NCBI RefSeq assembly: GCF_021353295.2
Contig: NZ_CP120635.1
Coordinates: 2,931,501-2,995,500 of the forward strand
Reading direction: 5' to 3'
DNA: 64,000 nt
Source: Pseudodesulfovibrio thermohalotolerans
Lineage (GTDB): Bacteria > Desulfobacterota > Desulfovibrionia > Desulfovibrionales > Desulfovibrionaceae
Shown here: positions 28,463 through 64,000 of the stretch, piece after piece
Position numbering within the stretch: the stretch's first letter is position 1
Layout of the letters: each line of letters begins with the position of its first letter
Notes under the pieces: generated by a model
The model's input: only the letters and a program-made list of their open reading frames with translations
Databases searched by the model: none
Told to the model about the DNA's origin: nothing
Position numbers and translations under genes: made by a program

Positions 28463-30529
28463 CTACTCCTTTTCAGGCTCCCCGCCGTCCATTCCCTGAT
28501 GGTCCAGCGGGAGGTTCACTTCAAAGACCGTTCCGCCGCCCTCGGCGCCGCCCTTGGCCTCCGGGGGAAACCCGAATTCCTCGGGGACCGGGCTGAGGGC
28601 TTGGATATCGCCGCCATGGTCCTCGATGATGCCAAAAGAGACGGACAGCCCGAGCCCCGTGCCCTTGTCCACGGCCTTGGTGCTGTAAAACGGATCGAAA
28701 ATCTTCTTGAGTCCATCCTCGGCTATGCCCGAACCGTTGTCGGCCACCCACAGCGAGACGATGCCGCCGGGGGTATCCAGCCGAGTGCGGATGAGAATGG
28801 TGCCGCCGTGGCCGCCCATGGCGTCACGCGCGTTGGTCAGGAGGTTGATCCAGACCTGCTTGAGCTTCTCGGGGTCACCGTAGATGATCGGGTAGCGGTC
28901 ATCGAGTTGGGTGACGATCTCCACCTTGTCGAGCTCCAGGGTATGGCGCACCAGGGAGACCGCCTCCATGACCGAGTTGTTGAAGCACATCTCGCGCTTG
29001 GCGGACTGGGTCTGACGGGAAAAGCCGAGCAAATCGGCGACGATCTTCTTGCACACCTGGGTCTGCTTCTCAATGATGGCCAGATCCTGGTGAATCTGGC
29101 TGTCCTCGTCCACATCCTCCTGCAGCAACTGGGCGTATCCCAGAATAATGCCGAGCGGGGTGTTGATTTCATGGGCGACGCCGCCGGCAAGCAGTCCCAG
29201 GGATTCCATCTTCTGGGCCTGAATGAGCTGGTTCTCGTATCGCTTGATGTCTGAAATGTCGCGGTCGGTCCGAAGCAGCCCGTCGATACGTCCCTCGTCG
29301 TTGAAAACAGGGACGCAGACCACGTGGAACCAGTGCTCGCCGCCGCCCCCCTCGACCATGACCTGGGTGTCCAGCCGACGCCCGGACTGAAGGATGTCTC
29401 GGGCCGCCATGTGGCGTTCCTCGGCCTCGGCCTCGGGGAAGAGATCGAAATCGGTCTTGCCCTCGATGGCGGCCAGGGAGATGCCCACGGATTCGGCGAA
29501 GCTCTTGTTGCATCCCCGGTAACGCATGGTGGCGTCCACCAGGGAAACGCGGTCCGGGGTCACGTCCAGAATGGTCCGGGTCAGCCGCTGCTGGTCGCGC
29601 AGGTTGCGCTCGGCTCCGCGCAGCTCCTCGATATGGCTTTTCAGCGACAGGGCCATGACGTCGAAGGTCTCGGCCAAATCCTGAATCTCGTCGCCCGCGT
29701 TCTCGCGATACACCGGACAGAGGCGGCAGGACTGCAACCGGCACTGGAAATTGTCCTCGTTGTTGCAGTCCGGGCACATGGTTCCGGCAATGTACCAGCA
29801 CCGACGCTTGGTCTCGCCATAGGCCGGACACTGCGGAGTGTTGCAGTTTTGCTTTTCCCAGCAATGAATACCCCAGGAGGGACCGGAAATGGTGTCGAGG
29901 TTGCCCATGAGCATCTCCTCGGCATGACTGCGCAGCCTGTGCAGCCGAACGGTGACGCGACGGGCGAAGACCGTTCCCAGAGATGTGGCCAGAAGCAGTG
30001 CCCCGGCGAAGAGACCGGCCATGAGGGTGATCTGCCGTTGCACGGCCAACTGAATGCGCGACTGGGACAGCCCGATGCGAACGGTGCCGAGCCGTCCGTC
30101 CGAGACGAGGATCGGGGCCGCGAAATCGTAAATGCGGCGGGAGCCGTCGGCCAGAAGCTGGATGTTCAGGGATTCGCCCTTTTCCACCTTGTTGGCTTCG
30201 ATAAGATCGACCGGGAATCCCTTCTGAAAAGTGTGGACCATGACATAGCCGTTCTTGTCCTGCACGAAGGCGTAAATCACGTCCTCCACGGTGGACTGCT
30301 CGTCGACCATGTTCTTGAGACGCAGAAAATCACGGGCAAGCATGGGGTCCACGGCCCGCACAGACAGCCCTTCGGCCAGGGCCGAGCCGCGCTTCTTGCT
30401 CTCCTCCACCAGAGAGCTGGCGCTCATGGTGCCGACCAGCGGCAGCAGCAGCACGGCCATGCCCACCAGGATGGCGGACATGCCCAGATTGAGCTTGGTG
30501 CGGAACTTGAGCCTGGGAAAAATGCGCAT
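28463..30529 (-). CDS. Histidine kinase with a nine-cysteine module inserted into its HAMP linker (locus A)
   Basis: 688 residues. Two transmembrane helices (about 15-38 and 168-188) enclose a periplasmic sensor of about 130 residues. The HAMP first helix (RLRSHAEEMLMGN) and second helix (DEIQDLAETFDVMALSL) are separated by residues 215-277, which hold nine cysteines (223, 229, 234, 244, 252, 255, 263, 268, 271), including the CW pairs of a two-CW-type domain. A PAS domain (about 315-440), a HisKA domain with GGVAHEINTPLG, and an ATPase with NARDAMG, DNGSGI and GTGLGLSVS follow. The PhnD-like lipoprotein encoded 6 bases upstream is a likely periplasmic partner. Confidence 0.9.
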   Translation of the reverse strand: MRIFPRLKFRTKLNLGMSAILVGMAVLLLPLVGTMSASSLVEESKKRGSALAEGLSVRAVDPMLARDFLRLKNMVDEQSTVEDVIYAFVQDKNGYVMVHTFQKGFPVDLIEANKVEKGESLNIQLLADGSRRIYDFAAPILVSDGRLGTVRIGLSQSRIQLAVQRQITLMAGLFAGALLLATSLGTVFARRVTVRLHRLRSHAEEMLMGNLDTISGPSWGIHCWEKQNCNTPQCPAYGETKRRCWYIAGTMCPDCNNEDNFQCRLQSCRLCPVYRENAGDEIQDLAETFDVMALSLKSHIEELRGAERNLRDQQRLTRTILDVTPDRVSLVDATMRYRGCNKSFAESVGISLAAIEGKTDFDLFPEAEAEERHMAARDILQSGRRLDTQVMVEGGGGEHWFHVVCVPVFNDEGRIDGLLRTDRDISDIKRYENQLIQAQKMESLGLLAGGVAHEINTPLGIILGYAQLLQEDVDEDSQIHQDLAIIEKQTQVCKKIVADLLGFSRQTQSAKREMCFNNSVMEAVSLVRHTLELDKVEIVTQLDDRYPIIYGDPEKLKQVWINLLTNARDAMGGHGGTILIRTRLDTPGGIVSLWVADNGSGIAEDGLKKIFDPFYSTKAVDKGTGLGLSVSFGIIEDHGGDIQALSPVPEEFGFPPEAKGGAEGGGTVFEVNLPLDHQGMDGGEPEKE

Positions 30530-30535
30530 GTGGGG

Positions 30536-31468
30536 CTACCGGTCCAATTGAAGTTTTTCGGCCAGGTCCCTGACCGGATCGTAGTCGATGTCGCGGGCCG
30601 GAATGATGCCCCTCATGCCCGCGGCGCTCAGGATGGCCCTGTGCTCGGGCGTATCGCGATCCAGGGCGAACATGGCCTTGGCCACGGCTTCCACCACGGC
30701 CGGATCGAGCCCCTTTCGGGCCGCGTATACCCAGCCGGGATACGGCGGGGTTTCGGCCAGAATGCGGATGGCCCCGAGATCGATCTTTCCGGCGACGACG
30801 TCGAGGGTGCCCTTGCGGATGGTGCCGATGTCGTACACGCCCGCGTGCACGGCCAGAACGACCTTCTCCTGCTTGCCGCCGGGACCGGGCGCGAAGTCCA
30901 CGGTCTCGAAATCTTCAAGCCTGATGCCGTGATCGTAGAAGAGCCCGAGGGGGAAAAGATAACCGCCCGCGGAATTGGGGTCCACGGCGATCCAGCGCTT
31001 GCCCCGGCAGTCCTCGATGGTCGAAACCGCCGCGTTATCCGTGCGGACTATGATCTGTCCCCGGAAAAACGGCTCGCCCGACGGCTCGATAACCCTGGCA
31101 AAAGCCTGCGCTCCGGCCTTGGCCAAACGCACGTAGACAAACGGATTGGAGTAGGAAATATCGATCTCGCCGCGCTCGACCATCTTGACGTGCTCTTCAA
31201 AGGTGTCCGGGAAGATCTGCCGAAGCGGCAGCCCGGTGGTCTCGCGCAGATACTCCAGCAACTGGCGGTGGCGCTGGTAGGAGATGGTGTGCGAATATTG
31301 GGGCAGATAGGCATAGGTAATGGCGTCGACCATGCGCGGAGCCACAAGGTCCTCGCGTTTGGACAAATTCACCTTGACCGGCTTCTCATCCGAGCAGCCG
31401 CCATAAAGCGTCGCCAGGAGAAACAGCGCCATAAGGGTCACACAGGTCTTCATTCCGGTTCTCTTCAT
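30536..31468 (-). CDS. PhnD-like periplasmic substrate-binding lipoprotein
   Basis: About 310 residues of the phosphate/phosphonate-type ABC substrate-binding family (PhnD/PtxB). The signal peptide ends in the lipobox LYGGC. Characteristic parts are FPDTFEEHVKMVERGEIDISYSNPFVYVRLAK, GKRWIAVDPNSAGGYLFPLG and HAGVYDIGTIRKGTLD. No permease or ATPase gene is near. It is the first gene of the operon with the kinase at 28463, which points to sensing rather than transport. Several in-frame starts exist (31468, 31480, 31453); 31468 is a compromise because no binding site is strong. Confidence 0.82.
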   Translation of the reverse strand: MKRTGMKTCVTLMALFLLATLYGGCSDEKPVKVNLSKREDLVAPRMVDAITYAYLPQYSHTISYQRHRQLLEYLRETTGLPLRQIFPDTFEEHVKMVERGEIDISYSNPFVYVRLAKAGAQAFARVIEPSGEPFFRGQIIVRTDNAAVSTIEDCRGKRWIAVDPNSAGGYLFPLGLFYDHGIRLEDFETVDFAPGPGGKQEKVVLAVHAGVYDIGTIRKGTLDVVAGKIDLGAIRILAETPPYPGWVYAARKGLDPAVVEAVAKAMFALDRDTPEHRAILSAAGMRGIIPARDIDYDPVRDLAEKLQLDR

Positions 31469-31629
31469 TTCACTCGCCATATGGCGCATCTGCGCCGTGT
31501 TGCGGACATCCCTTGAAACAATACAAAAATACCGTCCGCATTCCAACAATTCTTATCACTTGGCAACGCGCCGCCAAGACAGTATGAAGGGGACCGGCAC
31601 ACGGCCGTGCCCCAGCAAGGAGACTTACC

Positions 31630-32209: not shown

Positions 32210-32869
32210 TTAGGACCCTTCAGGTACCGGCTTACTTTCGATCAGCCCCGGCTTGCCTTTGGCTCGCCCCTTCCTGGATTCGATGTATGCCTTCTTGTCT
32301 TCTTCACTGAGCAAATCAGTGAAATCCATCATCTCGTCACCGGCCTCGTTGGCCTTGACCTTTTCACGAATGGTCCTGAAGACCGGCAGCCAGGGCTTGG
32401 CCTTGCAGAACAGGCAACGAACGGCGATGTAGACAGGAATGAAGATAAAGGCCGGACCGACCGCGCCGAGGTACGGCACGATGAAGTCCACCTCGCCGAA
32501 GCGATAGAACAGCCAACCGATGGCGAACGGGACAACCCACAGGGACGAGGCGAAAAGCGCCATGTGGGCGAAGAAATTTTTGCCGAAGGCTTCGTTGGCG
32601 ATGGAGTTGCAGGCCTTCCACGCAGTCTTGTCCTTGGCGCCGAGGGCGCGGACCGAGAGATTGTGGTTGTCGACCATGTCCCGATTGATGGTCCGGAAAT
32701 GCTTCTTGTTGAGGAAATAGACCCCGGCCATGCACAACTCGCCGATAACGGTGGCGACAAGGCCGACCCAGACCAGCCCGAGAGCAAAGCCGACATAGGC
32801 ATTGCCCGGAACGCGAAAGGCCCAGATCATCCAAGGGTCGAGAAATTCATAAACTATCTGGCCGGTCAT
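32210..32869 (-). CDS. Unknown membrane protein linked to the TauE permease
   Basis: A 219-residue protein with about four hydrophobic segments (25-50, 98-122, 128-150 and a weak first one) and a charged Lys-rich C-terminal tail. The loop after the first segment (FLNKKHFRTINRDMVDNHNL) is basic and probably cytoplasmic. I do not recognise the family. AGGAAAG lies before the ATG. It is 75 bases downstream of the TauE gene, the gap holding a perfect 28-base palindrome, so it is probably transcribed with it at a different level. Confidence 0.75.
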   Translation of the reverse strand: MTGQIVYEFLDPWMIWAFRVPGNAYVGFALGLVWVGLVATVIGELCMAGVYFLNKKHFRTINRDMVDNHNLSVRALGAKDKTAWKACNSIANEAFGKNFFAHMALFASSLWVVPFAIGWLFYRFGEVDFIVPYLGAVGPAFIFIPVYIAVRCLFCKAKPWLPVFRTIREKVKANEAGDEMMDFTDLLSEEDKKAYIESRKGRAKGKPGLIESKPVPEGS

Positions 32870-32944: not shown

Positions 32945-34072
32945 TTAGAAGGGCGGGACGATGGAGTAGCCCAGGAAGCCCTTGGTGGTGTAGCGCAGAC
33001 CAACATACACGGCCAGGACGATGAAGATGTACTTCAGGACCTTGTCCGGGATGAACTTGGAGGTCTTGGGTCCGATGATGGAGCCGATGACAACGCCGAC
33101 GAGCTCGGCGCCGATCAGGCCCCAGGCAACGGGGGTCTGCTTCAGCAGCATGTAGGAGGCAATGGAGTTGACCATGCCGATGAGAACCGCCAGAGCGGAA
33201 GTACCGGCGACCAGGTACATGGGCAGTCCGGCCACGGAGGTCAGGAACGGCACCAGCAGGAAGCCGCCGCCGACACCCAGGAAGGAGGCCAGGGCCGCGA
33301 TGCAGAAACCACCGACCACGGGAATCAGCGGGTTGAACTTGAACTCGACGCCGAAGAAGGAGAACTCGCACTCGGTCGGGGTGAACTTCTGAACCTTAAC
33401 GCCCATCTCGGCCATGTCGATGTCAGCACCGTTCTGCTGTTCCTTGACCGACTTCTGGAAAGCATCGGCGGCCTTCTTGGCTGCCTGCTTGGAAGCCTGC
33501 CCCTTGGGGGTGGTCTGGTAGAACAGGTAGCAGCCCAGGAACAGGACGAAGAGACCGAAGTAGCCCAGGTAAGCCTTCAGGCTGATCTTGCCGGCGGTCA
33601 GCCAGGGCACCAGCCAGGAACCGGCCACGGAACCGATGGCCAGGGCAATACCCAGCGGCAGAACCAGGCGACCGGCCTTGTAGTAGTTGAAGGAGGACAG
33701 GGCGGCGGAACAACCGACGAGCCACTGGTTGGACACGCGGATGGAGTCGGTGACGACCTTGTTCATCTTGGAGCCCTTGCCGAAGGAGCTGGCGTAATCG
33801 CCGAGGCCGTAGATGGTGATGTGACCAACACCGGCCATGATGCCGCCGAACGCGCCGACGGTGGAGAATATCCAGCCTACCCAGATCGCCCACAGGAAGC
33901 CGATGATGATGTTCAGCTGCGGACCGCCGGGGATGCCGAGATAGCCGGACTCACCGGTGGGTTTGGCTTCGGCGATGGCCTCGGACAGACGATCGGCCAA
34001 GGCGGGCTGCGCCATGAGGCAGACTGCTGCCACCAGGGCCAGCATCAGGAGAGTTTTCTTGGAACGTAACAC
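32945..34072 (-). CDS. TauE/SafE family sulfite/sulfonate-type permease
   Basis: A 375-residue protein with an N-terminal signal-like segment (MLRSKKTLLMLALVAAVCLMAQPALA) and eight or more helices in two halves. The repeats GWIFSTVGAFGGIMAGVGHI and ALASFLGVGGGFLLVPFLTSVAGLPM are typical TauE/SafE motifs. A soluble loop of about 60 residues (TTPKGQASKQAAKKAADAF) separates the halves, longer than usual. The start is GTG with AGGAGGAGG upstream. The family exports sulfite, sulfoacetate or related anions; the substrate here is unknown, but nearby sulfur-type redox genes fit. Confidence 0.88.
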   Translation of the reverse strand: MLRSKKTLLMLALVAAVCLMAQPALADRLSEAIAEAKPTGESGYLGIPGGPQLNIIIGFLWAIWVGWIFSTVGAFGGIMAGVGHITIYGLGDYASSFGKGSKMNKVVTDSIRVSNQWLVGCSAALSSFNYYKAGRLVLPLGIALAIGSVAGSWLVPWLTAGKISLKAYLGYFGLFVLFLGCYLFYQTTPKGQASKQAAKKAADAFQKSVKEQQNGADIDMAEMGVKVQKFTPTECEFSFFGVEFKFNPLIPVVGGFCIAALASFLGVGGGFLLVPFLTSVAGLPMYLVAGTSALAVLIGMVNSIASYMLLKQTPVAWGLIGAELVGVVIGSIIGPKTSKFIPDKVLKYIFIVLAVYVGLRYTTKGFLGYSIVPPF

Positions 34073-53245: not shown

Positions 53246-53436
53246 CACCATCTTCTCCTCGGTCTCGAAGGCCAGCGTCGTAACGCAACTGTAACATTTC
53301 CTAGCAGTATCCATGCCTCTCGTCATGAAGAATGCGGGGGACTGCATGTTTTTTTCCCGCTATCCCAGGAGGCTGTAGGCTTTCTTCCCTCTTCCCGCAA
53401 TCCCCCGGGACTGTGCCATCTTTTTCGATCTAGCCC

Positions 53437-53487
53437 GATTTTGCGCACAGCACCATCTGGCAAAATCATCGCGCAAACCATTTTGCG
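53437..53487 (+). promoter_or_regulatory. Palindromic activator-type sites upstream of the locus B promoter
   Basis: GATTTTGC (53437-53444) and GCAAAATC (53460-53467) are perfect inverted repeats with a 15-base spacer; CGCAAA-CCAT-TTTGCG (53472-53487) is a perfect palindrome. They lie about 60-110 bases upstream of the predicted sigma-54 start, the usual place for an enhancer-binding regulator. Another TTTTGCG occurs at 53549-53555. Confidence 0.7.
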
Positions 53488-53520
53488 TAAAAAAATACTT
53501 AAAAATTAGATTGTTACTCT

Positions 53521-53536
53521 TGGCACACGAGTTGCT
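53521..53536 (+). promoter_or_regulatory. Sigma-54 promoter of locus B
   Basis: TGGCACACGAGTTGCT has GG at 53522-53523 and GC at 53534-53535, 12 bases apart, matching the -24/-12 consensus. The start near 53547 leaves a 40-base leader before the first receiver gene. Confidence 0.9.
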
Positions 53537-53586
53537 AGGTTTGAACAGATTTTGCGGAATAAACCGATCAACCCAACGGTGACATC

Positions 53587-54021
53587 ATGGAACAGATGAA
53601 AATCCTGCTCGTGGACGATGAAGAGCGACTCCTCAGCACCACAAAAAAACTCTTCGAGAAGCTCGGCATCGAGGCACGCACCGCCACCTCGGGCACCGAG
53701 GCTCTGGAGGTGCTGAAGTCCTACGAGGCCCATGTGATCTTTCTCGACATCAAGATGCCCGGAATGGACGGCATGGAGACGTTACAACACATCAAGAAGG
53801 ACTATCCCATCAGCGAGGTCATCATCCTCACCGGCCATGCCACCATGGAGACCGCTGTGGAGGGTCTCAAGCTCGGGGCTCTGGACTACCTTATCAAGCC
53901 CGTGAGCATGAAGGACTTCCTCAGCAAGGCCGAGGAAGCCTTCGAAAAGGTCACGCTCCAGAAACAGAAGATACGCTCCGCCCGGATGGCAGACGCCGCC
54001 GGTCAGGGTGAACTGCGCTAG
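53587..54021 (+). CDS. Single-domain response regulator heading locus B
   Basis: A 144-residue receiver: LLVDDEERL, phospho-acceptor Asp in VIFLDIKMPGMDG, Thr in ILTGHAT, Lys in YLIKPVS. The last 25 residues form a helical, basic tail without a DNA-binding fold. It follows a sigma-54 promoter and should be phosphorylated by one of the kinases at 48497, 60722 or 62790. The 40-base leader has only a weak binding site. Confidence 0.92.
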   Translation: MEQMKILLVDDEERLLSTTKKLFEKLGIEARTATSGTEALEVLKSYEAHVIFLDIKMPGMDGMETLQHIKKDYPISEVIILTGHATMETAVEGLKLGALDYLIKPVSMKDFLSKAEEAFEKVTLQKQKIRSARMADAAGQGELR

Positions 54022-54040: not shown

Positions 54041-54940
54041 ATGGTTAAAATCAAGGTCCTCATGGTCGATGATGAGGAACGCTTCCGGACCACCACCGCG
54101 AAAATATTGGCCCGCAAAGGATACGAGACCATTCTCGCGGGCAGCGGGGAAGAGGCGTTGGAGCAACTCGATGCGAAACCCGACGTCGTCATTCTCGACG
54201 TCAAGATGGGCGGCTTGGATGGTCACGAGACGCTCAAAATCATCAAGAAAAGAATGCCCGATCTGCCGGTAATCATGCTCACCGGACACGGCGACATGCC
54301 CGGAGCGAAGAAAGCCCTCGACACCGGGGCCTTCGACTATCTGGCCAAACCCTGCGACGTGGACCTCCTGAGCACCAAGATTCAGGACGCCTACGACTAC
54401 GTGACCAAAGCGCCTTATGTCGAGAAACTGGCCAAAGGCATCATGATTCCCTTGGATGAGTACACGCAGATTCCGTTGGACAGCACAGTCCGCGACGCCA
54501 TCAAGGCCCTGGAGAAATCCATGCGCCACCTCATGGCAACGGACCGGCTCATGGACACCGGCCACCGTTCGGTGGTGGTGACCAACCGGGACGGCAGCGT
54601 GGCCGGAATTCTCAGCCCCCTCGACCTCGTGGACGCCATCAGGCCGGGCTACCTGTCCGCGCCCAAACCGTCCATGGCCGACAGTCTCCAGTATTCGGCA
54701 ATGTTCTGGCAGGGGCTGTTCACCTCGCGCGTCAAGGAGATCATGGAAAATCCCGTTCGCGACATCATGTCCGAGACCATCCCGGTCATTGATGCCGACG
54801 CCAACCTCATGGAAGTGGCCGACACCATGATTACCCTCCCGGCCCGGCGTATGCTGGTCAGAGCGGGTAACGAGGATGTGGGGGTCGTCCGCGAGCAGGA
54901 AGTCTTCTACGAAATCGCAAAGATCATTTCGTCCAGCTAA
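54041..54940 (+). CDS. Response regulator fused to paired CBS domains
   Basis: A 299-residue protein with a receiver (1-120; MVDDEERF, VVILDVKMGGLDG, MLTGHGDM, YLAKPCD) and two CBS motifs (about 140-215 and 245-299; MIPLDEYTQIPLDSTVRDAIKAL, RDIMSETIPVIDADANLMEVADTM). CBS pairs bind adenine nucleotides, so the protein may join phosphorylation and energy status. AAGGAGG lies upstream. It stands directly before the anion permease gene and may control that carrier by contact, which is inference. Confidence 0.92.
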   Translation: MVKIKVLMVDDEERFRTTTAKILARKGYETILAGSGEEALEQLDAKPDVVILDVKMGGLDGHETLKIIKKRMPDLPVIMLTGHGDMPGAKKALDTGAFDYLAKPCDVDLLSTKIQDAYDYVTKAPYVEKLAKGIMIPLDEYTQIPLDSTVRDAIKALEKSMRHLMATDRLMDTGHRSVVVTNRDGSVAGILSPLDLVDAIRPGYLSAPKPSMADSLQYSAMFWQGLFTSRVKEIMENPVRDIMSETIPVIDADANLMEVADTMITLPARRMLVRAGNEDVGVVREQEVFYEIAKIISSS

Positions 54941-54967
54941 CCCGAAGCCAGATTGCGAGGTTACATC

Positions 54968-56818
54968 ATGGCTCAAGCAAAGAAGAAAGCAACCGGTTAC
55001 GACAAGTTCGTCAATTGGAAGCTATTCATAATTCCGGTGATACTTTTCACTGCGATCCTGATCCTTCCGACGCCCCAGGGCATGAAAGACGTGGGTATGC
55101 AGTATTCGGTCGGCCCCAAGGTCGTGACCAATTACCTGTGCGAACAACTTTTCCAGAAAAAAAGTTCCGATTGCGAGCAGTGGGAAGTCCTGACCGCCCG
55201 CATGATGGAACAGAATATGCGTATGGGCGCCCTGTCCAAGGAACGCCTGATGAAGCGCAACGAGAAGTGGGCGAAAAAGCATAAGATTCCCGTTGATGCC
55301 ACCAACTTCGACAGGGCGTACGAATACGTCAAGAACAACGTGTCTGCCGACGAGTACCTGACCATGATGAAGGGTGCTTTCGACAAGCGCATGAAAGGGC
55401 TCCATTTCGACGAACTGTCGAAGAGAGACCAGGCCAGCGCCGACCAGGGCGCCTGGAAGATCAAGGTCGCCATCGCCATGGTCGTATTCGTGGTCTTCTG
55501 CTTTATGACCGAGTGCATCCCGCTCCCCGGCGTGTCCTTCTCCATCGGCCTCATACTGGTCTTCACCGGAGTGGTCTCGCGAAGCGAGGTGGCTGGACTC
55601 TACTGGTCGGACGCCTGCTGGTTTATCATGGGTTCCCTCATGTTCGCAGCGGCCTTCGTCAAAACCGGCGTGGACAAGCGCATGTGCCTGCTCATGTTCA
55701 AGAAGCTGGCAGTGCCGAACGTGCGCTGGATCACGTTGATCTTCTTCATCGTCATCGCCCCGCTGGCGGCGTTCATCTCCGACCACGCGCTGGCGGCCAT
55801 GTTCCTGCCCATCGGCATGTTGCTCTACCAGAACAGCCTGACCGACGAGGTGCCCGAGGACAAGGAATTGGCCAAGATGCTGATGATTACCATCGCCATG
55901 GCCTGTAACATCGGCGGCCCCGGCGCCCCGTCCGGCGGCGCCCGAAACGTCATCATGATGACCTACCTGTCCGACATGTTCGGCATGGACATCGGCTACG
56001 CCCAGTGGATCATGTACTGCATGCCCTTCGTCATCGTCATGATCCCCCTCACCTGGGTTATCACCAACATGATCTTCAAGCCCCGCATTCGCTCCCTGGC
56101 TCCGGCCATGCGCCACCTGGAAAGCGAAATCGGCAAGATGGGCAAGTGGAACAAGAACCAGATCTGGGCAATGATCATCTTCGTGTTCATGGTCTTCGGG
56201 TGGTTCACCGAGAAGGCGTTCTACAACATGGGCATCTACCCCATCCGCCTCGGCATCGGCGTCATCGCGGTCGCGGGCGCTGTGGCCTACCTCCTGGCGG
56301 GTGTTGTCAACTGGCGCGACTACCAGGAAAAGGTCGACTGGGGTGTTGTCTGGCTGTACGCGGGCGCGATCATCTTCGGTCACACTCTTGACAAGACCGG
56401 CGCGGCATACTGGCTGGCCCAGTCCGTCATCGACCTGCTGGCACCGCTGGGCATGAGCCAAGGCATCCCGCTGATGCTCACCTCCAACGGCCTGACCGCC
56501 GTGCTGACCAACCTGATGGCCGACGGCCCGGCAGCCGCCGCGGTCGGTCCCATCACCCTGAACATGGCCAGCATCGTGCACCCCGGCACCACCTTCCTGC
56601 CGTTCATGGCCATGGCCACCGCAGTGGCGTCGTCCTTCGCCTACTGCCTGATTATCGGCACCCCGCCCAACGCCATCGTCTACGCCTCCGGATACCTGGA
56701 GCCCAAGGACTACCTGCGTGTGGGCGTGCCCATGTGGTTTGTCGCCAACATCATCATCGTCATCCTCACGGCAGTGTACTGGAGCGGTATCGGCTTCGGC
56801 AGTCTGCCATCGTTCTGA
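54968..56818 (+). CDS. DASS/SLC13 family anion symporter with an extra hydrophilic N-terminal domain
   Basis: A 616-residue carrier. After a first helix (about 20-36) a charged, Lys/Met-rich region of about 120 residues precedes the standard helices. DASS features are ECIPLPGVSFSIGLILVFTGVVS, WFIMGSLMFAAAFVKTGVDKR, the sodium/anion site IAMACNIGGPGAPSGGARN and the second repeat LTSNGLTAVLTNLMADGPAAAAVGP. Substrates of the family are sulfate and dicarboxylates; in a sulfate reducer sulfate is plausible. The start at 54968 follows GAGG by 7 bases. The N-terminal insertion is unusual for the family. Confidence 0.9.
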   Translation: MAQAKKKATGYDKFVNWKLFIIPVILFTAILILPTPQGMKDVGMQYSVGPKVVTNYLCEQLFQKKSSDCEQWEVLTARMMEQNMRMGALSKERLMKRNEKWAKKHKIPVDATNFDRAYEYVKNNVSADEYLTMMKGAFDKRMKGLHFDELSKRDQASADQGAWKIKVAIAMVVFVVFCFMTECIPLPGVSFSIGLILVFTGVVSRSEVAGLYWSDACWFIMGSLMFAAAFVKTGVDKRMCLLMFKKLAVPNVRWITLIFFIVIAPLAAFISDHALAAMFLPIGMLLYQNSLTDEVPEDKELAKMLMITIAMACNIGGPGAPSGGARNVIMMTYLSDMFGMDIGYAQWIMYCMPFVIVMIPLTWVITNMIFKPRIRSLAPAMRHLESEIGKMGKWNKNQIWAMIIFVFMVFGWFTEKAFYNMGIYPIRLGIGVIAVAGAVAYLLAGVVNWRDYQEKVDWGVVWLYAGAIIFGHTLDKTGAAYWLAQSVIDLLAPLGMSQGIPLMLTSNGLTAVLTNLMADGPAAAAVGPITLNMASIVHPGTTFLPFMAMATAVASSFAYCLIIGTPPNAIVYASGYLEPKDYLRVGVPMWFVANIIIVILTAVYWSGIGFGSLPSF

Positions 56819-56890: not shown

Positions 56891-57040
56891 ATGAAAAATC
56901 AAAACAACGAGGAACGCAAATTCGTCCACGAGAGCGGCGTGACCTACTTCAGCAAGCAAACCGAACGCCGCATTCTTTTCTTACTGACCCTGGCGATGCT
57001 CGCGTGGGGCGTCGTCGATTACGCAACGACCATCTTTTAG
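56891..57040 (+). CDS. 49-residue single-helix membrane peptide
   Basis: ATG at 56891 with AAGGAG 7 bases upstream, stop at 57038. The peptide has a charged N-terminal half (KNQNNEERKFVHESG) and one transmembrane helix (RILFLLTLAMLAWGVVDYATTIF). The strong binding site and tight placement between the symporter and Yip1-like genes support a real gene. It could be a small subunit or regulator of the symporter. Confidence 0.75.
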   Translation: MKNQNNEERKFVHESGVTYFSKQTERRILFLLTLAMLAWGVVDYATTIF

Positions 57041-57057
57041 GCAAAGAGGGGGCAAAC

Positions 57058-57606
57058 ATGGAAGCTACTCGCGAAATAAGCACCAGGATGGGGATCCGGG
57101 AATATTTCGAGACTCTGATGAACGTCATGCGGTCGCCCGCACGCCATTTCGAGGGGACCGCAAATGAAACGGGCTCACGCAGAGCGCTCACTTTCCTGAT
57201 GATATCAGCCTTGTTCTACTGCACGGTGAGCATGGCCTACTTCTTCGAAAACTCCCTGGCCATGGGAGCGATAATATTGGCCAACGCCATTCTCATGCCC
57301 GCCTTCGGCGCGGTCATCACCTTCATTCTGACGAGCATGACAGGTCAGGAAAAAGTGCCCTTCGGCCGTGTCTTCAACATCTACGCGTACGCCAGCGGAG
57401 CGGTCATGATTATCTCATGGATTCCCGGGCTGGCCCTCGTCATGGAGCCGGTGCGCGCCTTGCTCCTGGGCATCGGGCTGCACAAGGGAGCCGGGGTGGG
57501 CAAACTTCGGGCCGCCATGCTCATCATACTGACCGCTGCGGTCATGCTCCTCTTCTTCTGGACCGCCGCGCCCATGGTCGTCGAATTGAAGCAATTGTTC
57601 CAATAG
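57058..57606 (+). CDS. Yip1-domain-like membrane protein
   Basis: A 182-residue protein. YFETLMNVMRSPARHFEG is the typical opening of bacterial Yip1-domain proteins, followed by four or five helices (LTFLMISALFYCTVSMAYFF, AIILANAILMPAFGAVITFI, VFNIYAYASGAVMIISWIPG, AAMLIILTAAVMLLFFW). The start at 57058 follows AGAGGGGG. Function of the bacterial family is not known. It is 17 bases after the 49-residue peptide gene, so it belongs to the same transcript. Confidence 0.85.
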   Translation: MEATREISTRMGIREYFETLMNVMRSPARHFEGTANETGSRRALTFLMISALFYCTVSMAYFFENSLAMGAIILANAILMPAFGAVITFILTSMTGQEKVPFGRVFNIYAYASGAVMIISWIPGLALVMEPVRALLLGIGLHKGAGVGKLRAAMLIILTAAVMLLFFWTAAPMVVELKQLFQ

Positions 57607-57722: not shown

Positions 57723-58106
57723 ATGAAAAAAATACGCCTGCTTCTGGTCGACGACGAAACGGACTTCCTGAACGCCTACGCGCGCCGCTTCGTGCGTCGA
57801 AACGTCGAGATAACCCCGGCCACCAGCGGCCAGGAGGCCATCGACAAGATCCGTGAGAACGAATTCGACGTGGTCATCCTCGACGTCATGATGCCCGGAA
57901 TGAACGGGCTTGAGACCTTGCGGCGAATCAAGGCCATCGAACCGGATTTGCCGGTAATCATCCTGACCGGACACGCCGATTCCCGCGCGCTCATCGAGGG
58001 CATGGACATGGGCGCATTCGACTTCCTGCTCAAGCCGGTAGGGACCGACGAGCTCTATTTCAAGGTGCTGGACGCCGTTCGCGCCCGCCATCGCGGCCAA
58101 CCGTAG
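57723..58106 (+). CDS. Single-domain response regulator before the second PEP-synthase-like gene
   Basis: A 127-residue receiver: LLVDDETDF, Asp in VVILDVMMPGMNG, Thr in ILTGHAD, Lys in FLLKPVG. No output domain. GGAGG lies upstream of the ATG. The next gene, 15 bases on, encodes the PEP-synthase-like protein, as in locus A where a receiver gene also stands directly before its paralogue. Confidence 0.93.
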   Translation: MKKIRLLLVDDETDFLNAYARRFVRRNVEITPATSGQEAIDKIRENEFDVVILDVMMPGMNGLETLRRIKAIEPDLPVIILTGHADSRALIEGMDMGAFDFLLKPVGTDELYFKVLDAVRARHRGQP

Positions 58107-58121
58107 CCCCGGAGGTTCGCC

Positions 58122-60725
58122 ATGAAGACCGCGCTCAAGACCCTGTTCAACTTCATCCACGGCAATCCCAAGGGAGAACGGGAATCTGTTGAGAAATTCC
58201 TCAACAAGTCAGAGGATTTCCGACTCCTGCTCTCGGCCAACGGCAAAGCTCTGGAGCTCATGTCCGAAATGACCGACGCCGCGCAGTCCGGCCACCCCTC
58301 CGGCATCACCCGGGTGCGGGCGTACAGCGTCATGGTCGCATCGAGCGTCCGCCAGATGATCGAGCGCCTGTGCCGCATGGCTCCAGGCAAATACGACGGA
58401 CTGCGGGACGTCTTCAACGAAATCGTGCAGAACATGGACAGGGCGTTCGCCGGTCCGGACAGAGGCCCCCTCGGCCCGCCGGTGCTGCGTCTGCGCGACG
58501 TGCGCGCCTCGGACCTGCCCGAAACCGGCTCAAAGGTGGCCATGCTCGGCGAAATACGGGCCGAACTGGGCGCGGTGGTCCCGCGCGGTTTCGCCATCAC
58601 GGCCTCGGCCTTCCACCTGTTCATGGAATCCACCGGCCTGGACGACGAGATCAACCGGCTCATCCAGATTCACGACAGTTCCTCACTGGAGGAGCTCAAC
58701 GACCTGGCGCGAAGCATCCGCAACGCCATTGACCTGGCCCCCATGCCGTCCGAGCTGGAAGAGGCCATGAGCGAGCAATGCGCCAGACTCGGCGACATCC
58801 GCTTCGCCGTGCGCTCAAGCGCACTGGGCGAGGACTCGGAGCAGACCGGTTTCGCCGGACAATTCATTTCCAAGCTCGGGGTCAAGCCCGCGCAGGTGAG
58901 CGACGCCTACCGCGCGGTCGTCTCCAGCATGTACTCGGCAACGGCCATCACCTATGTCCGCAACCGAGGGTTGCGCGAAGACGAAATGGTCATGGCCGTC
59001 GGCTGCATGGAGATGGTCGACGCCGTTGCCGGCGGAGTGATCTACACCCGTCCCCCGGTGGGCGGCGATGAGAACACGCTGATCGTGAACGCGGTGCCCG
59101 GCCTGCCCTGCGCCGTGGTGGACGGCAGCTCCCTGGCCGACTCCTGGACCGTGGACCGCGAAACCCGCAAGATCACGGGCCGCGACATAGCCGAAAAGGA
59201 GGTCCGTTTCGTCATGACCTCCGGCGGCCAGGTCCGCAAGGAAAAGCTCTACGGCGGCAAGCAACTGGAACCGGCCGTCCCGGATCACGACATCGAACGG
59301 CTCGCCGACCTGGCCATGCGCATCGAGAACCACTTCGGCCGTCCGCAGGACATCGAGTGGGCCCGTGACCGCGAGGGACTGCTCATCATCCTGCAATGCC
59401 GTCCCCTGACCATGTGCGACGACGCGCCCCAGCCGCCGGTGGAGGACGAGGAAAGCCGCGGCCTGGCCATCCTGACCGGGTGCATCCCGGCCAGCCCCGG
59501 CGCGGCTTCGGGCTGCGTGGTCAAGGTGGAGTCCGACGAGGACATGTTCCGCTTCCCGGACGGCGCGGTCCTGTTGGCCCGCAACGCCCGCCCGCAACTG
59601 TCCGCCCTGCTGCCCCGCGCCTCCGCCCTGGTGGCCGAATTCGGCAGCTCCGTCGGACACCTGGCCAATGTGGCCAGGGAATACGGCATCCCCGCCCTCA
59701 TCGGCGCGCCCGGAGCCGTCGAACGTCTTTCCGGCGTGGGCGTGATAACGGTCAACGGCACCAACGGGACCATCTACCTGGGGCGGCGCAAGCGAATGAT
59801 CGAGCTGGAAGCCCGCCCGGCGGCCGCCGCGCGGACCTCGGATGTGAGCCTGGCACTGCGCCGGGTGCTCAAGTTCATCACCCCGCTCAGCCTGACCGAC
59901 CCGGAATCCCCGGACTTCCGGCCCGAAGGGTGCCGTTCCATGCACGACATCACCCGATTCTGCCACGAAAAGGCCGTCAGCGAGATGTTCACTCAGGGTA
60001 ACAGGCCCGTTTCCGGCGCGCGCAGGCTGACCGGCCAGCAGAATATGCAGTACTGGCTGGTGGACATCGGCGGCGGCACGGCGGGCAGCGAGACCGAAGC
60101 CTCGGACTCCCGCCAAAGCATCACTGTTGACGCCGTTCGGTCGCGCCCCATGCGCGCCCTGTGGTACGGCATGATGACCGTGCCCTGGGAAGGCCCGCCG
60201 CCCGCGCGCATGGACGGATTCATGTCCGTGCTGACCAGCTCGGCCCAAAACCCGGCACTGGCCCCCGGCGCGCGAAACGACATGGGCGAACGCAACTACT
60301 TCATCGTGGGCAGCCGCTACTGCAACCTGCAATCGCGGTTCGGCTTCCATTTCTGCACCATCGAGGGATTCGCGGGCGACGATCCCAACTCCAACTACGC
60401 CCTGTTCCAGTTCAAGGGAGGCGGGGCGAGCCTGGACCGCCGCAACCTGCGCGCGCGCCTGGTGGCCGAAGTGCTGGAAAAACGCGGCTTCATCGCCGAA
60501 ATCCGTGACGACGCCCTGTTCGCGCGGCTCGAAGGCGTCAGCCGGCAGGCCGTGGAGCAGGCAATGGCCGTGCTCGGCTATCTGCTCATGCACACCCGGC
60601 AGATCGACATGTCCATGGCCGACCCGGCCATGGTCATCCGCTACCGCGACAAGTTCGAGGCGGAAATCGAGGAACTGCTGGAAGGACTGTCCGAGGAACT
60701 CAAGGAAGCGGGGTGCGCGGCATGA
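58122..60725 (+). CDS. PEP-synthase-like phosphotransfer protein without the PEP-binding barrel (locus B)
   Basis: 867 residues with the same layout as the locus A protein. A helical N-terminus (1-120) is followed by an ATP-grasp domain (about 125-430; GSKVAMLGEIRAELGAVVPRGF, IRFAVRSSALGEDSEQTGFAGQ, PQDIEWARDREGLLIILQCRP). The phosphohistidine domain (about 455-560) has His513 in FGSSVGHLANVAREYGIPALIG. The C-terminal domain shares GCRSMHDITRFCHEKAVSEMF and NYALFQFKGGGASLDRR with the paralogue; no PEP/pyruvate barrel is present. GGAGG stands before the start, and the stop overlaps the next kinase start (ATGA). The order receiver, PEP-synthase-like, kinase suggests signalling. Confidence 0.9.
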   Translation: MKTALKTLFNFIHGNPKGERESVEKFLNKSEDFRLLLSANGKALELMSEMTDAAQSGHPSGITRVRAYSVMVASSVRQMIERLCRMAPGKYDGLRDVFNEIVQNMDRAFAGPDRGPLGPPVLRLRDVRASDLPETGSKVAMLGEIRAELGAVVPRGFAITASAFHLFMESTGLDDEINRLIQIHDSSSLEELNDLARSIRNAIDLAPMPSELEEAMSEQCARLGDIRFAVRSSALGEDSEQTGFAGQFISKLGVKPAQVSDAYRAVVSSMYSATAITYVRNRGLREDEMVMAVGCMEMVDAVAGGVIYTRPPVGGDENTLIVNAVPGLPCAVVDGSSLADSWTVDRETRKITGRDIAEKEVRFVMTSGGQVRKEKLYGGKQLEPAVPDHDIERLADLAMRIENHFGRPQDIEWARDREGLLIILQCRPLTMCDDAPQPPVEDEESRGLAILTGCIPASPGAASGCVVKVESDEDMFRFPDGAVLLARNARPQLSALLPRASALVAEFGSSVGHLANVAREYGIPALIGAPGAVERLSGVGVITVNGTNGTIYLGRRKRMIELEARPAAAARTSDVSLALRRVLKFITPLSLTDPESPDFRPEGCRSMHDITRFCHEKAVSEMFTQGNRPVSGARRLTGQQNMQYWLVDIGGGTAGSETEASDSRQSITVDAVRSRPMRALWYGMMTVPWEGPPPARMDGFMSVLTSSAQNPALAPGARNDMGERNYFIVGSRYCNLQSRFGFHFCTIEGFAGDDPNSNYALFQFKGGGASLDRRNLRARLVAEVLEKRGFIAEIRDDALFARLEGVSRQAVEQAMAVLGYLLMHTRQIDMSMADPAMVIRYRDKFEAEIEELLEGLSEELKEAGCAA

Positions 60726-62398
60726 TCTCCACCTCCTACTCCCGTCTCAAGTGGTATCTGGTGCTCATCACCCTGGGCCTCTCCGTGGTGCCGCTTTTCG
60801 CGCTGGGCTATGTCATCCACAACGAATTCCGGAAGACCTACGAGGAAAAGCTCACGGACAACCTGCGGCTCATGGTCTCCAACCGGCGAAACGCCATCTC
60901 CATGTTCCTCAACGAAAGGGTGGTCCAACTGCAAATGCTGGCGGACATCCACTCCTTTGCCGAGATGTCCAACCAGGCGTATCTGAACAAGGTTTTCGAC
61001 GCCATCCACGATACGTCCAGCTCCTTTTTCGACATCGGAGTCATCGGCCAGAACGGCAGCCATGAGGCGTACTGCGGCCCGTTCGACCTCATGGAGGTCA
61101 ACTACCGCGACGAGCCGTGGTTCCATCAGGTCATGCTCAAGGGGCTGTATATCAGCGACGTGTTCATGGGATTCCGCAACTTCCCGCACTTCATCATCGC
61201 GGTGAAACGCCAGGAAGGAGGCAGGACCTGGATACTCCGCGCGACCATCGACTCCGAGGTGTTCACCTCGCTGGTGCGCAACGTTCGCACCGGCCAGATG
61301 GGCGACGCATACATCATCAACAACAAAAACGTGCTCCAAACGCCGTCACGATTCGGCGGCAGGGCCCTGACCAAGGTCGACCTGCCCATCGGCGATCCCG
61401 GCGAAAACGTGGAGATCCAATCCTGGCGCAGGGACGGCGTCCCGGTCATCGCCGGATTCACGCGCCTGCCCAACACCAGTTGGCGGCTGGTCATCATGGA
61501 AAATCCCGAAGAGGAACTCTCCCCCCTGCTGCGCACCCGTTCGCTCATCTACGCCCTGTTCGGAAGCTGCGCCCTGATGATCTTCGTCGGAGCCTACCTG
61601 ACCGTTTCCTCGGTCGTTTCCCGGCTCAAGGCGTCGGACCGCGAACGCGCGGCCATGGACGCGGCGGTCATGCAGTCGAGCAAGATGGCCTCTCTGGGCA
61701 AGCTGGCCGCCGGAGTGGCCCACGAAGTCAACAACCCCCTGTCCATCATCCGCGAAAGCGCGGGCTGGATACGGGATATCATAAATGACGGAGAGTTGGG
61801 CGACGGCCCGGCCGTGGACGAGCTACAGGAGGCGATCTCGGATATCGACCGCCACGTGGAACGGGCGCGCACCGTGACCCACCGTATGCTCGGCTTCGCC
61901 CGGCGCATGGAGCCTCTCCAAGAGGATGTGGACCTGAACATGCTGGCCAACCAGACAGCCTCGTTCCTGGAAAACGAGACGCGGCACCGCAATATCCTGG
62001 TGGAGACCGACCTCGACCCGGAACTGCCGCTCATCACCACCGACGCCAACCAGTTGCAACAGGTTATCCTGAACCTGCTCGAAAATGCCATCGACGCCAT
62101 CGACCAGGACGGCCAGATCACCGTTGTCACCCGGGTGGACGGGGACACCGTCGCCCTCGACATCGCCGACAGCGGGGCCGGAATCTCCAGGGAAAACATG
62201 AACAAGGTCTTCGATCCCTTCTTCACCACCAAGCCCACCGGCGAGGGTACCGGATTGGGGCTTTCCATCGTATACAGCACTCTGAGCAAGCTGGGCGGGA
62301 CCATCAGGGTCAACAGCGACCCCGGACAGGGAACCACGTTCACCATCCGCCTGCCCTTCACCGGACCGCAATTCCCCGGCGGCAAGGAGGAACAATGA
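60722..62398 (+). CDS. Histidine kinase with double-Cache sensor (locus B)
   Basis: 558 residues. Two helices (about 10-32 and 275-297) flank a double-Cache sensor similar to that of the kinase at 48497 (GLYISDVFMGFRNFPHFIIAVKR, GDAYIINNKNVLQTPSR). A HisKA domain with GVAHEVNNPLSII and an ATPase with NAIDAI, DSGAGI and GTGLGLSI follow. The ATG overlaps the PEP-synthase-like stop, and the stop overlaps the next receiver start, so three proteins are translationally coupled. Confidence 0.93.
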   Translation: MISTSYSRLKWYLVLITLGLSVVPLFALGYVIHNEFRKTYEEKLTDNLRLMVSNRRNAISMFLNERVVQLQMLADIHSFAEMSNQAYLNKVFDAIHDTSSSFFDIGVIGQNGSHEAYCGPFDLMEVNYRDEPWFHQVMLKGLYISDVFMGFRNFPHFIIAVKRQEGGRTWILRATIDSEVFTSLVRNVRTGQMGDAYIINNKNVLQTPSRFGGRALTKVDLPIGDPGENVEIQSWRRDGVPVIAGFTRLPNTSWRLVIMENPEEELSPLLRTRSLIYALFGSCALMIFVGAYLTVSSVVSRLKASDRERAAMDAAVMQSSKMASLGKLAAGVAHEVNNPLSIIRESAGWIRDIINDGELGDGPAVDELQEAISDIDRHVERARTVTHRMLGFARRMEPLQEDVDLNMLANQTASFLENETRHRNILVETDLDPELPLITTDANQLQQVILNLLENAIDAIDQDGQITVVTRVDGDTVALDIADSGAGISRENMNKVFDPFFTTKPTGEGTGLGLSIVYSTLSKLGGTIRVNSDPGQGTTFTIRLPFTGPQFPGGKEEQ

Positions 62399-62793
62399 AC
62401 CAGATTCGCGTACTCGTGGTGGACGACGAACCAGACTTCCTGAAGCTCATTCAGCGAAGACTGACCAAGCGCAACGTGCATGTGGACACCGTAACCAACG
62501 GCGAGGCGGCCCTGGCCTTTCTCAAGGACAATCCGGTTGACGTGATAATCCTCGACGTGCGGATGCCCGGGCTGTCCGGCATCGACACGCTCAAGGAAAT
62601 CCGCAAGCGGTTCCGCGACACCGAGGTCATCATGCTCACCGGACACGGCTCCCTGCAATCGGGCATCGAGGGCATCAGCCTCGGCGCATACGACTACATC
62701 CTCAAGCCGTTCTCGATCGACAACCTCCTCGGACGCATCCGCGCGGCCCATGAACACGCCAAGCTGCGCATTGAACGCAGGAGTCATCAATGA
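62395..62793 (+). CDS. Single-domain response regulator (locus B)
   Basis: A 132-residue receiver: LVVDDEPDF, Asp in VIILDVRMPGLSG, Thr in MLTGHGS, Lys in YILKPFS. It overlaps the kinase genes on both sides by four bases (ATGA). The C-terminal tail is short and basic, without an output domain. Confidence 0.93.
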   Translation: MNQIRVLVVDDEPDFLKLIQRRLTKRNVHVDTVTNGEAALAFLKDNPVDVIILDVRMPGLSGIDTLKEIRKRFRDTEVIMLTGHGSLQSGIEGISLGAYDYILKPFSIDNLLGRIRAAHEHAKLRIERRSHQ

Positions 62794-63707
62794 GCCTGAC
62801 CAACGCCAGAAAGGTCGTCATGCTCGGCCGATTCGCCTATCCGGCGTCCTGCCTGGCCGTTGGCGGGGCCGCATGGTTTCACGGGCACACAGGGTACACC
62901 ATAGCCCTGGCCATCGCCCTGCTCATAACCGGCGGCATGTGGATACTGCTCTGGGTCTCGACGCGCTGGCTGAACCAGGCCGAGGCCGAACGGACCGAGA
63001 TGGGGGACCAGCTCATCCAGTCCCAGCGGATTCTGGCCCTGGGCGAACTGTCCACCGGCATCGCCCACGAGATCAACAATCCCCTGAACATCATCCTCCA
63101 GGAGGCCGAGCTCATGCGCTACAACCTCTCAGCGCCCGCATCCCGCGAAGCGCTGGACGAGGTCCGCACCAGCCTGGACGTCATCTACGCCCAGGTCTCC
63201 CGCTGCTCGGACATCACCCACAAGCTCCTGGACCTGGCCCGCAAGCGCAAGCCAGTCTCGCAACCGGCGGACATAAACCAGTTGGTCGAGGACATGCTCG
63301 AACTGGTGGAACGCGAGACCGTCCCGCGAAAAATCGAGATTCACCGCCGAATGGCCACAACCCTTCCCATGGTGACTTCGGACCCGCCCCTGCTGCGCCA
63401 GGTCTTCCTGAATCTGCTCATCAACGCGGTGCAGGCCGTGGACCGGGATGGCGACATCTTCATCACCACATACCGTGACGGGAATCTGGCCTGCTCGGAA
63501 ATACGAGACAACGGGCCAGGCATTTCCGAAGAGAACCGGAAACGCATCTTCAACCCGTTCTTCACCACCAAGGCTCCGGGCAAGGGCACCGGGCTGGGCC
63601 TGTCGGTCAGCCTGCGAATCATCAATGAACTGGGCGGGGACATCCTGGTGTCTTCCCCGCCGGATGGGGGAGCGGCGTTCACCGTGCGCATTCCCATAAC
63701 GCGATAA
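62790..63707 (+). CDS. Membrane histidine kinase without periplasmic sensor (locus B)
   Basis: A 305-residue kinase with two helices close together at the N-terminus (about 13-30 and 33-58) and almost no periplasmic loop. The HisKA domain has GIAHEINNPLNIIL, and the ATPase NAVQAV, DNGPGI and GTGLGLSVS. It probably receives its input from another membrane or cytoplasmic protein of the locus. It is coupled to the receiver before it, and another receiver gene follows after 11 bases. Confidence 0.93.
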   Translation: MSLTNARKVVMLGRFAYPASCLAVGGAAWFHGHTGYTIALAIALLITGGMWILLWVSTRWLNQAEAERTEMGDQLIQSQRILALGELSTGIAHEINNPLNIILQEAELMRYNLSAPASREALDEVRTSLDVIYAQVSRCSDITHKLLDLARKRKPVSQPADINQLVEDMLELVERETVPRKIEIHRRMATTLPMVTSDPPLLRQVFLNLLINAVQAVDRDGDIFITTYRDGNLACSEIRDNGPGISEENRKRIFNPFFTTKAPGKGTGLGLSVSLRIINELGGDILVSSPPDGGAAFTVRIPITR

Positions 63708-63718
63708 AGAGGTGCATC

Positions 63719-64000
63719 ATGACGACCCATAAGGCGAAAATCCTCGTAGTCGATGACGAGGAGCGTTTCCGGAAATCCCTGTGCCGCCTGCTGCGCGCCG
63801 AGGGCTACACCGTGGAGCCTGCGGAAAACGGGCACGAGGCCCTGAACAAGCTGGCCACGAACCAGTTCGACGTGGTATTGCTCGACATGAAAATGCCAGG
63901 CATGTCCGGCGCGGAGACCTTCAGCGAGATACAGCTTCAGGGATTCGACGTGGAGACCGTCTGCCTGACCGGACACACTTCCATCACCGACGCCATGAAG
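63719..64000 (+). CDS. Response regulator, N-terminal receiver, cut by window edge
   Basis: ATG at 63719 after AGAGGTG. 94 codons are visible: LVVDDEERFRK, Asp in VVLLDMKMPGMSG, Thr in CLTGHTS. The reading frame continues past the edge, so an output domain, for example of the NtrC type that could act on the sigma-54 promoter at 53521, cannot be excluded. Confidence 0.9.
   Translation, partial: MTTHKAKILVVDDEERFRKSLCRLLRAEGYTVEPAENGHEALNKLATNQFDVVLLDMKMPGMSGAETFSEIQLQGFDVETVCLTGHTSITDAMK

Follow-up and report, generated by a model that had tools for sequence, protein, structure and literature searches.

Phosphoenolpyruvate (PEP) synthase and pyruvate phosphate dikinase (PPDK) hold their acceptor substrate in the part of the protein that follows the swivel domain. 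We know of no described two-component system in which a dikinase-type phosphotransferase is the partner of a receiver. Here we analyzed a 64,000-nucleotide stretch of the Pseudodesulfovibrio thermohalotolerans genome (contig NZ_CP120635.1, positions 2,931,501 to 2,995,500; the window), in which a gene for a dikinase-like protein, P0001, lies between genes for a stand-alone receiver and a sensor histidine kinase (locus B; Table 1). A paralogue, P0002, is encoded at locus A of the same window. In this family the loss of the PEP/pyruvate barrel is secure, as is the genomic linkage to inorganic-ion transporters, kinases and stand-alone receivers, and the dikinase-like protein is likely a two-component output that is needed for oxyanion transport.

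One of the closest described systems is the Desulfovibrio "nitrate cluster", DVU0251-DVU0245 and Dde_0597-Dde_0605, which comprises TauE, a protein of unknown function, a PtxB-type binding protein, a kinase, a receiver, a "pyruvate phosphate dikinase" and a DSP phosphatase (PMC4001038; here and below we draw on part of that paper). Insertions in DVU0246 (dikinase-like), DVU0247 (receiver), DVU0250 and DVU0251 (TauE) gave strains that grew equally with and without 100 mM nitrate, and a mutant in DVU0245 (phosphatase) remained nitrate-inhibited (PMC4001038). The authors proposed leaky thiosulfate uptake and referred to unpublished work in which G20 mutants were mildly sick on thiosulfate (PMC4001038); a later paper, in the part available, mentions putative thiosulfate transporters (PMC9723548). 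The dikinase-like gene is annotated as a pyruvate phosphate dikinase and, in the sections on which we draw, is not treated as a family or as a two-component output (PMC4001038). Locus A, read on the minus strand from 34072 down to 24531, has the gene order of this cluster, bar one opposite-strand frame (170 aa, 31630-32142). Mutants in the receiver, the dikinase-like protein and the transporter have one phenotype in common there, and nothing argues more strongly that the three belong to one pathway. The pathway link is strong; the acceptor and direction of phosphotransfer are matters of inference. Locus B differs from the nitrate cluster in its order, with a DASS symporter, a receiver-CBS protein, a Yip1-domain protein, two kinases and extra receivers, and none of its scanned genes gave a PhnD or DSP match.

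The original prediction, made from the letters and open reading frames of the window, held that locus B encodes a second barrel-less paralogue with the domain order of locus A, and this was borne out. P0001 carries a PPDK_N domain and a PEP-utilizers mobile domain followed by a C-terminal domain (CTD) of its own, and is 32% identical to P0002 across 844 columns. The motifs that the two were said to share are present, GCRSMHDITRFCHEKAV and FKGGGA in P0001 and GCKSLHDVVRFCHEKAV and FKGGGA in P0002. The PEP-utilizers_C barrel (PF02896) was not found by Pfam scan in P0001, nor in any of the five full-length family proteins scanned, and none of 70 CTD members scanned singly had a barrel match at E<=0.05. 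P0001 did not reach the cut-off of the PEP synthase equivalog TIGR01418 (287.8 bits versus 739.75) or that of rifampin phosphotransferase (RPH), NF041857 (213.8 of 999 bits); it scored 201.4 of 1300 and 180.4 of 1350 bits against the prodigiosin ligases PigC/RedH (NF052631 and NF052632), and its best NCBIfam matches end near residue 563. Among proteins of solved structure, PEP synthases come nearest to it in sequence, and a Foldseek search with the full-length model matched PEP synthase (458 columns), RPH and PPDK, with RPH structures among the top matches.

P0001 thus has the ATP-binding domain and the swivelling His domain of PEP synthase in the same order, with the catalytic positions kept, and differs from it in lacking the PEP/pyruvate barrel and in having an added N-terminal helical region (residues 1-120, for which a Pfam scan returned no family) and its own CTD. 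It resembles RPH and PigC/RedH in pairing a dikinase core with another acceptor module. In RPH the acceptor domain is placed between the ATP and His domains, whereas the candidate acceptor module of the dikinase-like protein is C-terminal. K138, R231, E412 and Q425 are each conserved in 62 of 63 family sequences and R427 in all 63, positions that we take to have their catalytic roles in dikinases. Because these positions and His513 are kept, the ATP-to-His half reaction is probably intact, as judged from sequence conservation.

The CTD replaces the barrel and has H608, D609, H615, G683, G741, H743, G767, R777, G819 and D829 invariant in 63/63 family sequences. Although modelled with a mean pLDDT of 86.6, it matched nothing in the PDB at E<=0.001 by Foldseek (best TM-score 0.24 by query length among the 50 matches shown), and a profile search of PDB sequences gave no hits at E<=10. 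Among the 70 members scanned singly against Pfam, no family matched more than two, and all matches had E above 0.005. Since PEP synthase and PPDK bind their acceptor after the swivel domain, the CTD is by analogy likely to be an acceptor-binding module.

The predicted arrangement of the neighboring genes was confirmed as well. The dikinase-like gene directly follows the receiver gene 57723-58106 on the same strand, 15 bp downstream, and an ATGA overlap read from the DNA (60722-60725) couples it to the histidine kinase gene; a second such overlap (62395-62398) couples the kinase gene to the next receiver gene. The longest frame of this kinase begins at a GTG at 60713, with the ATG of the overlap at 60722, and its dCache_1 match (38.8 bits) lies under the cut-off of 45. 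The receiver 57723-58106 keeps D10, D11, D54, T82 and K104 and meets the CheY-like signature (acidic pair, Asp, Thr/Ser, Lys). Four PPDK_N genes were found in the genome, and three of these carry the CTD (loci A, B and C). The third paralogue, at locus C, lies elsewhere in the genome, behind a kinase and three tandem receivers. The fourth gene gave a match to the barrel family too, and the surrounding -4/+3 kb hold neither signalling genes (receiver or kinase) nor a profiled transporter.

From the recurrence of this arrangement the original prediction had argued for a functional link beyond chance. The CTD profile search and neighborhood survey that it had proposed were run. We counted a receiver/kinase or a transporter within -4/+3 kb of a family gene, on either strand unless stated, and required 4 kb upstream, 3 kb downstream and the N-terminal region for a gene to be counted. 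The first sample was drawn from 66 named loci given by one scan of genome contigs. The second comprised 29 loci (L099-L127) from 27 GTDB families of the window's phylum, which we judged from named relatives to be Desulfobacterota; three were from genera of the window's family, and all were picked by CTD match alone, favoring strong profile matches. The two samples possibly overlap in genomes, and the 22 second-sample genes derive from 20 loci. A third set (L128-L135) was selected for frame length and is reported apart, and L007, L119, L126, L134 and L101 were dropped as repeat or near-identical assemblies. Transporter profiles were TauE, DASS, SulP, ChrA, NhaB and Na/H; a ClC profile drifted to 167 genes and was discarded. 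As controls we took 20 barrel dikinase genes from the window's phylum, including one with less than 1 kb downstream. The Na/H and NhaB profiles were not used on these controls; omitting both alters no either-strand count.

Most homologues proved to neighbor a receiver or kinase, the reverse of the outcome that would have refuted the link. Among family genes without the C-terminal extension described below, this was true of 28/29 in the first sample and 20/22 in the second, 48/51 together (an earlier, cruder count gave 30/33), with kinases near 25/29 and 14/22. Inorganic-ion transporters, mostly TauE/SafE, were near 15/29 and 14/22, or 29/51 together (15/29 and 12/22 on the same strand). The barrel dikinase controls had a receiver or kinase in 2/20 cases and a transporter in 0/20 (Fisher test of 51 versus 20, kinship ignored: p 7e-12 for signalling and 2e-6 for transporters). 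Unextended genes of the third set gave 3/4 and 2/4, and with this set and the five repeats restored the counts were 52/56 for receiver/kinase and 31/56 for transporters. Pfam scans of example neighbors supported TauE, SulP, DASS/CitMHS, Na/H exchanger, ClC and chromate transporters. The transporter family varies by clade (TauE of several types, DASS, SulP), and the receiver/kinase and dikinase genes are constant. In a genome with 101 receiver matches in 3.9 Mb, some neighbors are expected, and the clustering could in principle lack functional meaning; the difference between 48/51 and 2/20, seen across many GTDB families, refutes this, and we find chance scarcely credible.

Genes for Usp (4/29 and 3/22) and CBS (4/29 and 1/22) proteins also recur as neighbors. 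They would suit a catalytically idle scaffold, or an ATP/AMP sensor that relays energy status to the transporter, and it would be reasonable for oxyanion uptake to be tied to the adenylate level. Near-complete conservation of the catalytic positions, including the swivel His, would be unexpected in such a protein, and we consider this reading very improbable.

We collected the same-strand receivers no more than 300 bp away that were retained by gene calling, a set of 33 that includes the window's two and from which some overlapping frames were lost. All 33 consisted of a receiver only (119-165 aa) without a DNA-binding domain; across the whole genome of the window, by hand count, 24 of the 101 receiver matches are in frames <=180 aa. 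The phospho-acceptor Asp was present in 32/33, with Asn in one, and one had Ala for Thr/Ser. Like CheY-like receivers they have no output domain and would need protein contact to act; because their core has no DNA-binding output, such contact is expected, and the dikinase-like protein would be the obvious partner. No receiver-dikinase fusion, which would be direct evidence of contact, was found among the collected loci, whose members with long open frames were inspected; the 1833-aa frame of L032 is an N-terminal read-through opposite other genes.

These receivers bear on the reading that the protein is an ordinary metabolic phosphotransferase for a small sulfur or carbon substrate, which shares only the locus and is regulated transcriptionally only. 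The fold family does include metabolic dikinases and drug phosphotransferases, and the extended subclass lacks receivers by count and has ChrA chromate genes at some of its loci. The absence of a DNA-binding domain from all 33 of the adjacent receivers examined and the lack of such linkage in barrel dikinases argue against it, as does the published finding that dikinase-like and transporter mutants have the same phenotype (PMC4001038). We think this alternative unlikely.

Phosphoryl flow could also be reversed. The dikinase-like protein would then be a histidine kinase of the ATP-grasp type and would phosphorylate the adjacent receivers from its ATP-fed swivel His~P, which would give them an input additional to that from the sensor kinase. 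The swivel His and the receiver Asp, each conserved with a single exception, would allow this, and the D. vulgaris cluster, in which the kinase is a pseudogene and the receiver and dikinase-like mutants behave alike (PMC4001038), speaks for it. The kinases found near most copies speak against it, the conserved CTD would be left without an obvious role, and the dikinase fold family has acceptors other than receivers. We judge reversed flow clearly improbable.

We also determined how the family is distributed. Of 297 genomes sampled from the window's phylum, 107 had the CTD and 143 had dsrA over its cut-off; both were present in 102, the CTD only in 5, dsrA only in 41 and neither in 149, which places dsrA in 102/107 CTD-positive and 41/190 CTD-negative genomes. 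The five CTD-positive genomes without dsrA over cut-off (G072, G108, G124, G143, G194) are 62-80% complete. In a second phylum, that of L054 (a Nitrospiraceae metagenome-assembled genome, MAG), dsrA at E<=1e-60 was found in 34/39 CTD-positive genomes (32 over cut-off) and in 29/109 CTD-negative ones, 80 having neither. Out of ten genomes behind selected named loci, 8 had dsrA over cut-off, in one the matches were all short and weak, and a Chitinivibrionia MAG had no dsrA match. Up to 8 CTD and 6 dsrA candidates were scored per genome, so that a presence is more certain than an absence, and common descent of the genomes makes the association look larger than it is; the CTD family is nevertheless strongly associated with dsrA genomes in both phyla sampled.

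In a tree of the family, the A-type clade mostly has TauE or PhnD, kinase, receiver, dikinase-like and DSP phosphatase genes. Other groups are TauE clades with a partner of ~230 aa and a DASS/CBS clade, and locus B pairs with L005 (DASS). The tree also separates an extended subclass of about 1050-1124 aa with a C-terminal addition; the two additions scanned matched a concanavalin-like family weakly (3-keto-disaccharide hydrolase, 23.5 and 24.2 bits, cut-off 26.8) and not a receiver. Eleven loci were assigned to this subclass (L043, L049, L050, L052, L053, L062 and L129-L133), with L051, cut at its 5' end, omitted. ChrA occurs at 4/11 (L043, L049, L130, L132), with ChrB too at two.

Some companions recur. 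A DSP-type phosphatase whose C-terminal part weakly matches CxxCxxCC is encoded at 24531-25610 and at 18 related loci, mostly directly 3' of A-type dikinase-like genes. The ~230-aa protein (L115 5184-5870, L118 8721-9404 and relatives) accompanies long TauE proteins beside the dikinase-like gene; a profile search found 29 such genes, and the single one scanned had no Pfam match. At L102, L110, L112, L125 and L135, two or three dikinase-like paralogues are clustered, interspersed with or flanked by receiver or kinase genes. Plant glucan water dikinase and its phosphatases offer a model in which dikinase, DSP phosphatase and lectin-like extension would serve glycan phosphorylation. We dropped this idea, as no recurring glycan genes were noticed in the neighbor lists, in which no dedicated search was made, and since 4/11 extended loci adjoin ChrA genes.

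The reading that we favor, to which we give an even chance, is that this two-component output is an ATP-driven dikinase-type phosphotransferase that turns on a nearby oxyanion transporter. The kinase would phosphorylate the receiver, which, having no output domain of its own, would bind the dikinase-like protein. The phosphoryl group would then pass from ATP to the swivel His and on to an acceptor bound by the CTD, for which the candidates are a small effector, a partner protein or a transporter protein. The phosphorylated acceptor would turn on the nearby inorganic-anion transporter, TauE/SafE at locus A and DASS at locus B, and at locus A the DSP-type phosphatase may reverse the phosphorylation step. 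The circuit would be part of the way in which dissimilatory sulfate/sulfite reducers deal with sulfate, thiosulfate and related oxyanions. A broader proposal, which we put forward tentatively and hold a little less likely, is that of a widespread and undescribed kind of two-component output, in which phospho-receivers switch an AMP-forming dikinase, its CTD passes the His-borne phosphate on, and the protein or effector that receives it gates oxyanion transporters at the post-translational level, with a dikinase arm and a DSP phosphatase arm. The transporter link, the tie to dsrA, the receiver-less extended subclass and the published phenotype for the locus A gene order go beyond the original prediction.

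Several observations weigh against the favored reading. Equating locus A with the nitrate cluster rests on gene order and domains, and the nitrate data pertain to locus A's cluster, not to locus B. The kinase DVU0248 is marked as a pseudogene in D. vulgaris, yet the receiver mutant has a phenotype (PMC4001038), which means that kinase-to-receiver flow is dispensable there or that another donor serves. Mutant results also differ by assay and by strain: the phosphatase mutant scored +2.08 in G20 and -6.04 in D. vulgaris, DVU0250 was low in the pool and resistant as an isolated mutant, and rex mutants, which lie outside the cluster, are nitrate-resistant as well (PMC4001038). The insertions may be polar. 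By our counting rule the extended subclass has a receiver or kinase in 0/6 cases; L051 and L052, with flanks too short to count, have opposite-strand kinases alongside. Locus C has no profiled transporter in 19.9 kb, the TauE gene of locus A sits 4.9 kb away, beyond the rule, so that locus A counts as transporter-less, and 22/51 family genes have no profile-recognized transporter in reach. On the same strand, receiver/kinase counts drop to 27/29 and 15/22 (42/51 together) and to 1/4 in the third set, so a good part of these genes are neighbors rather than operon partners.

Table 1. Features of loci B and A, numbered from the first nucleotide of the window.
Feature	Position	Strand	Match or measure
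Locus B, stand-alone receiver (CheY-like), 127 aa, phospho-acceptor Asp54	57723..58106	+	Response_reg 1.3e-30
Locus B, dikinase-like protein B (P0001), 867 aa	58122..60725	+	AlphaFold model mean pLDDT 85.7
P0001, N-terminal helical region, aa 1-120	58122..58481	+	helices 18-56, 62-86, 93-109 in model
P0001, PPDK_N nucleotide-binding domain, aa 135-445	58524..59456	+	PF01326 1.5e-79
P0001, swivelling phosphohistidine (PEP-utilizers mobile) domain, aa 478-549	59553..59768	+	PF00391 6.1e-15
P0001, His513, catalytic-His position of swivel domain	59658..59660	+	His in 62/63 family members
P0001, CTD, aa 573-867, replacing PEP/pyruvate barrel	59838..60722	+	~290 aa, no Pfam match
Locus B, sensor histidine kinase	60722..62398	+	HATPase_c 4e-30, HisKA 1.4e-8
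Locus B, second stand-alone receiver	62395..62793	+	Response_reg 4.2e-33
Locus B, second histidine kinase	62790..63707	+	HATPase_c 2.2e-24, HisKA 3.9e-13
Locus B, third receiver, truncated by window end	63719..64000	+	receiver match G000:C1:2995240-2995569
Locus B, receiver 5' of transporter	53587..54021	+	Response_reg 4.8e-30
Locus B, receiver fused to two CBS stretches	54041..54940	+	Response_reg 4.2e-29, CBS 6.3e-10 (2 stretches)
Locus B, DASS sodium-coupled anion symporter	54953..56818	+	TIGR00785 224.8 bits vs cut-off 198.6
Locus B, Yip1-domain membrane protein	57004..57606	+	PF04893 1.3e-8
Locus A, dikinase-like paralogue (P0002), 817 aa	25588..28041	-	
Locus A, stand-alone receiver, 122 aa	28094..28462	-	
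Locus A, histidine kinase	28463..30529	-	HATPase_c 8.9e-22, HisKA 6.3e-14
Locus A, DSP/PTP-type phosphatase	24531..25610	-	PF22785 1.8e-17, DSPc 2.2e-12, weak CxxCxxCC 0.021
Locus A, PhnD-type periplasmic binding protein	30536..31549	-	PF12974 1e-62
Locus A, protein without Pfam match, adjoins TauE	32210..32869	-	
Locus A, TauE/SafE transporter	32945..34072	-	PF01925 1.1e-25

Divergent from the locus A TauE gene lies a molybdopterin oxidoreductase gene (34875-36965, +), whose best NCBIfam match, to the thiosulfate reductase PhsA, scores 517 bits and so stays under the cut-off of 694. Between the two a 4Fe-4S ferredoxin-like frame (34154-34756, -) was noted by eye. At locus B the substrate of the DASS symporter is probably the ion of the locus. 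Upstream, between a dCache kinase gene (48497-50173) and the first receiver gene of locus B, the stretch 50237-53587 has long open frames on both strands; a 1036-aa minus-strand frame within it gave no match in a Pfam scan, and the true gene there is uncertain.

How sulfate reducers select among sulfate, thiosulfate and toxic look-alikes such as nitrate, and how they limit the entry of each, is in our judgment poorly understood, and one review, in the part available, states that the functions of their TSUP/TauE proteins are not feasible to predict (PMC5840216). The question has a practical side, since nitrate serves against oil-well souring and insertions in such a cluster confer nitrate resistance (PMC4001038). 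In titles and abstract openings, with subscription journals mostly outside coverage, we found no account of the CTD family as such or as a two-component output. With 107 of the 297 genomes carrying it, and with its ties to ion transporters, kinases, receivers and dsrA, the family presents a control circuit that is concrete and testable, and its CTD is a conserved domain of ~290 aa without a recognized fold relative. If the proposed circuit is real, it would add an unexplored phosphotransfer chemistry, from ATP to a swivel His with probable formation of AMP, to two-component signalling, and would give dissimilatory sulfate reducers a dedicated circuit for the control of uptake.

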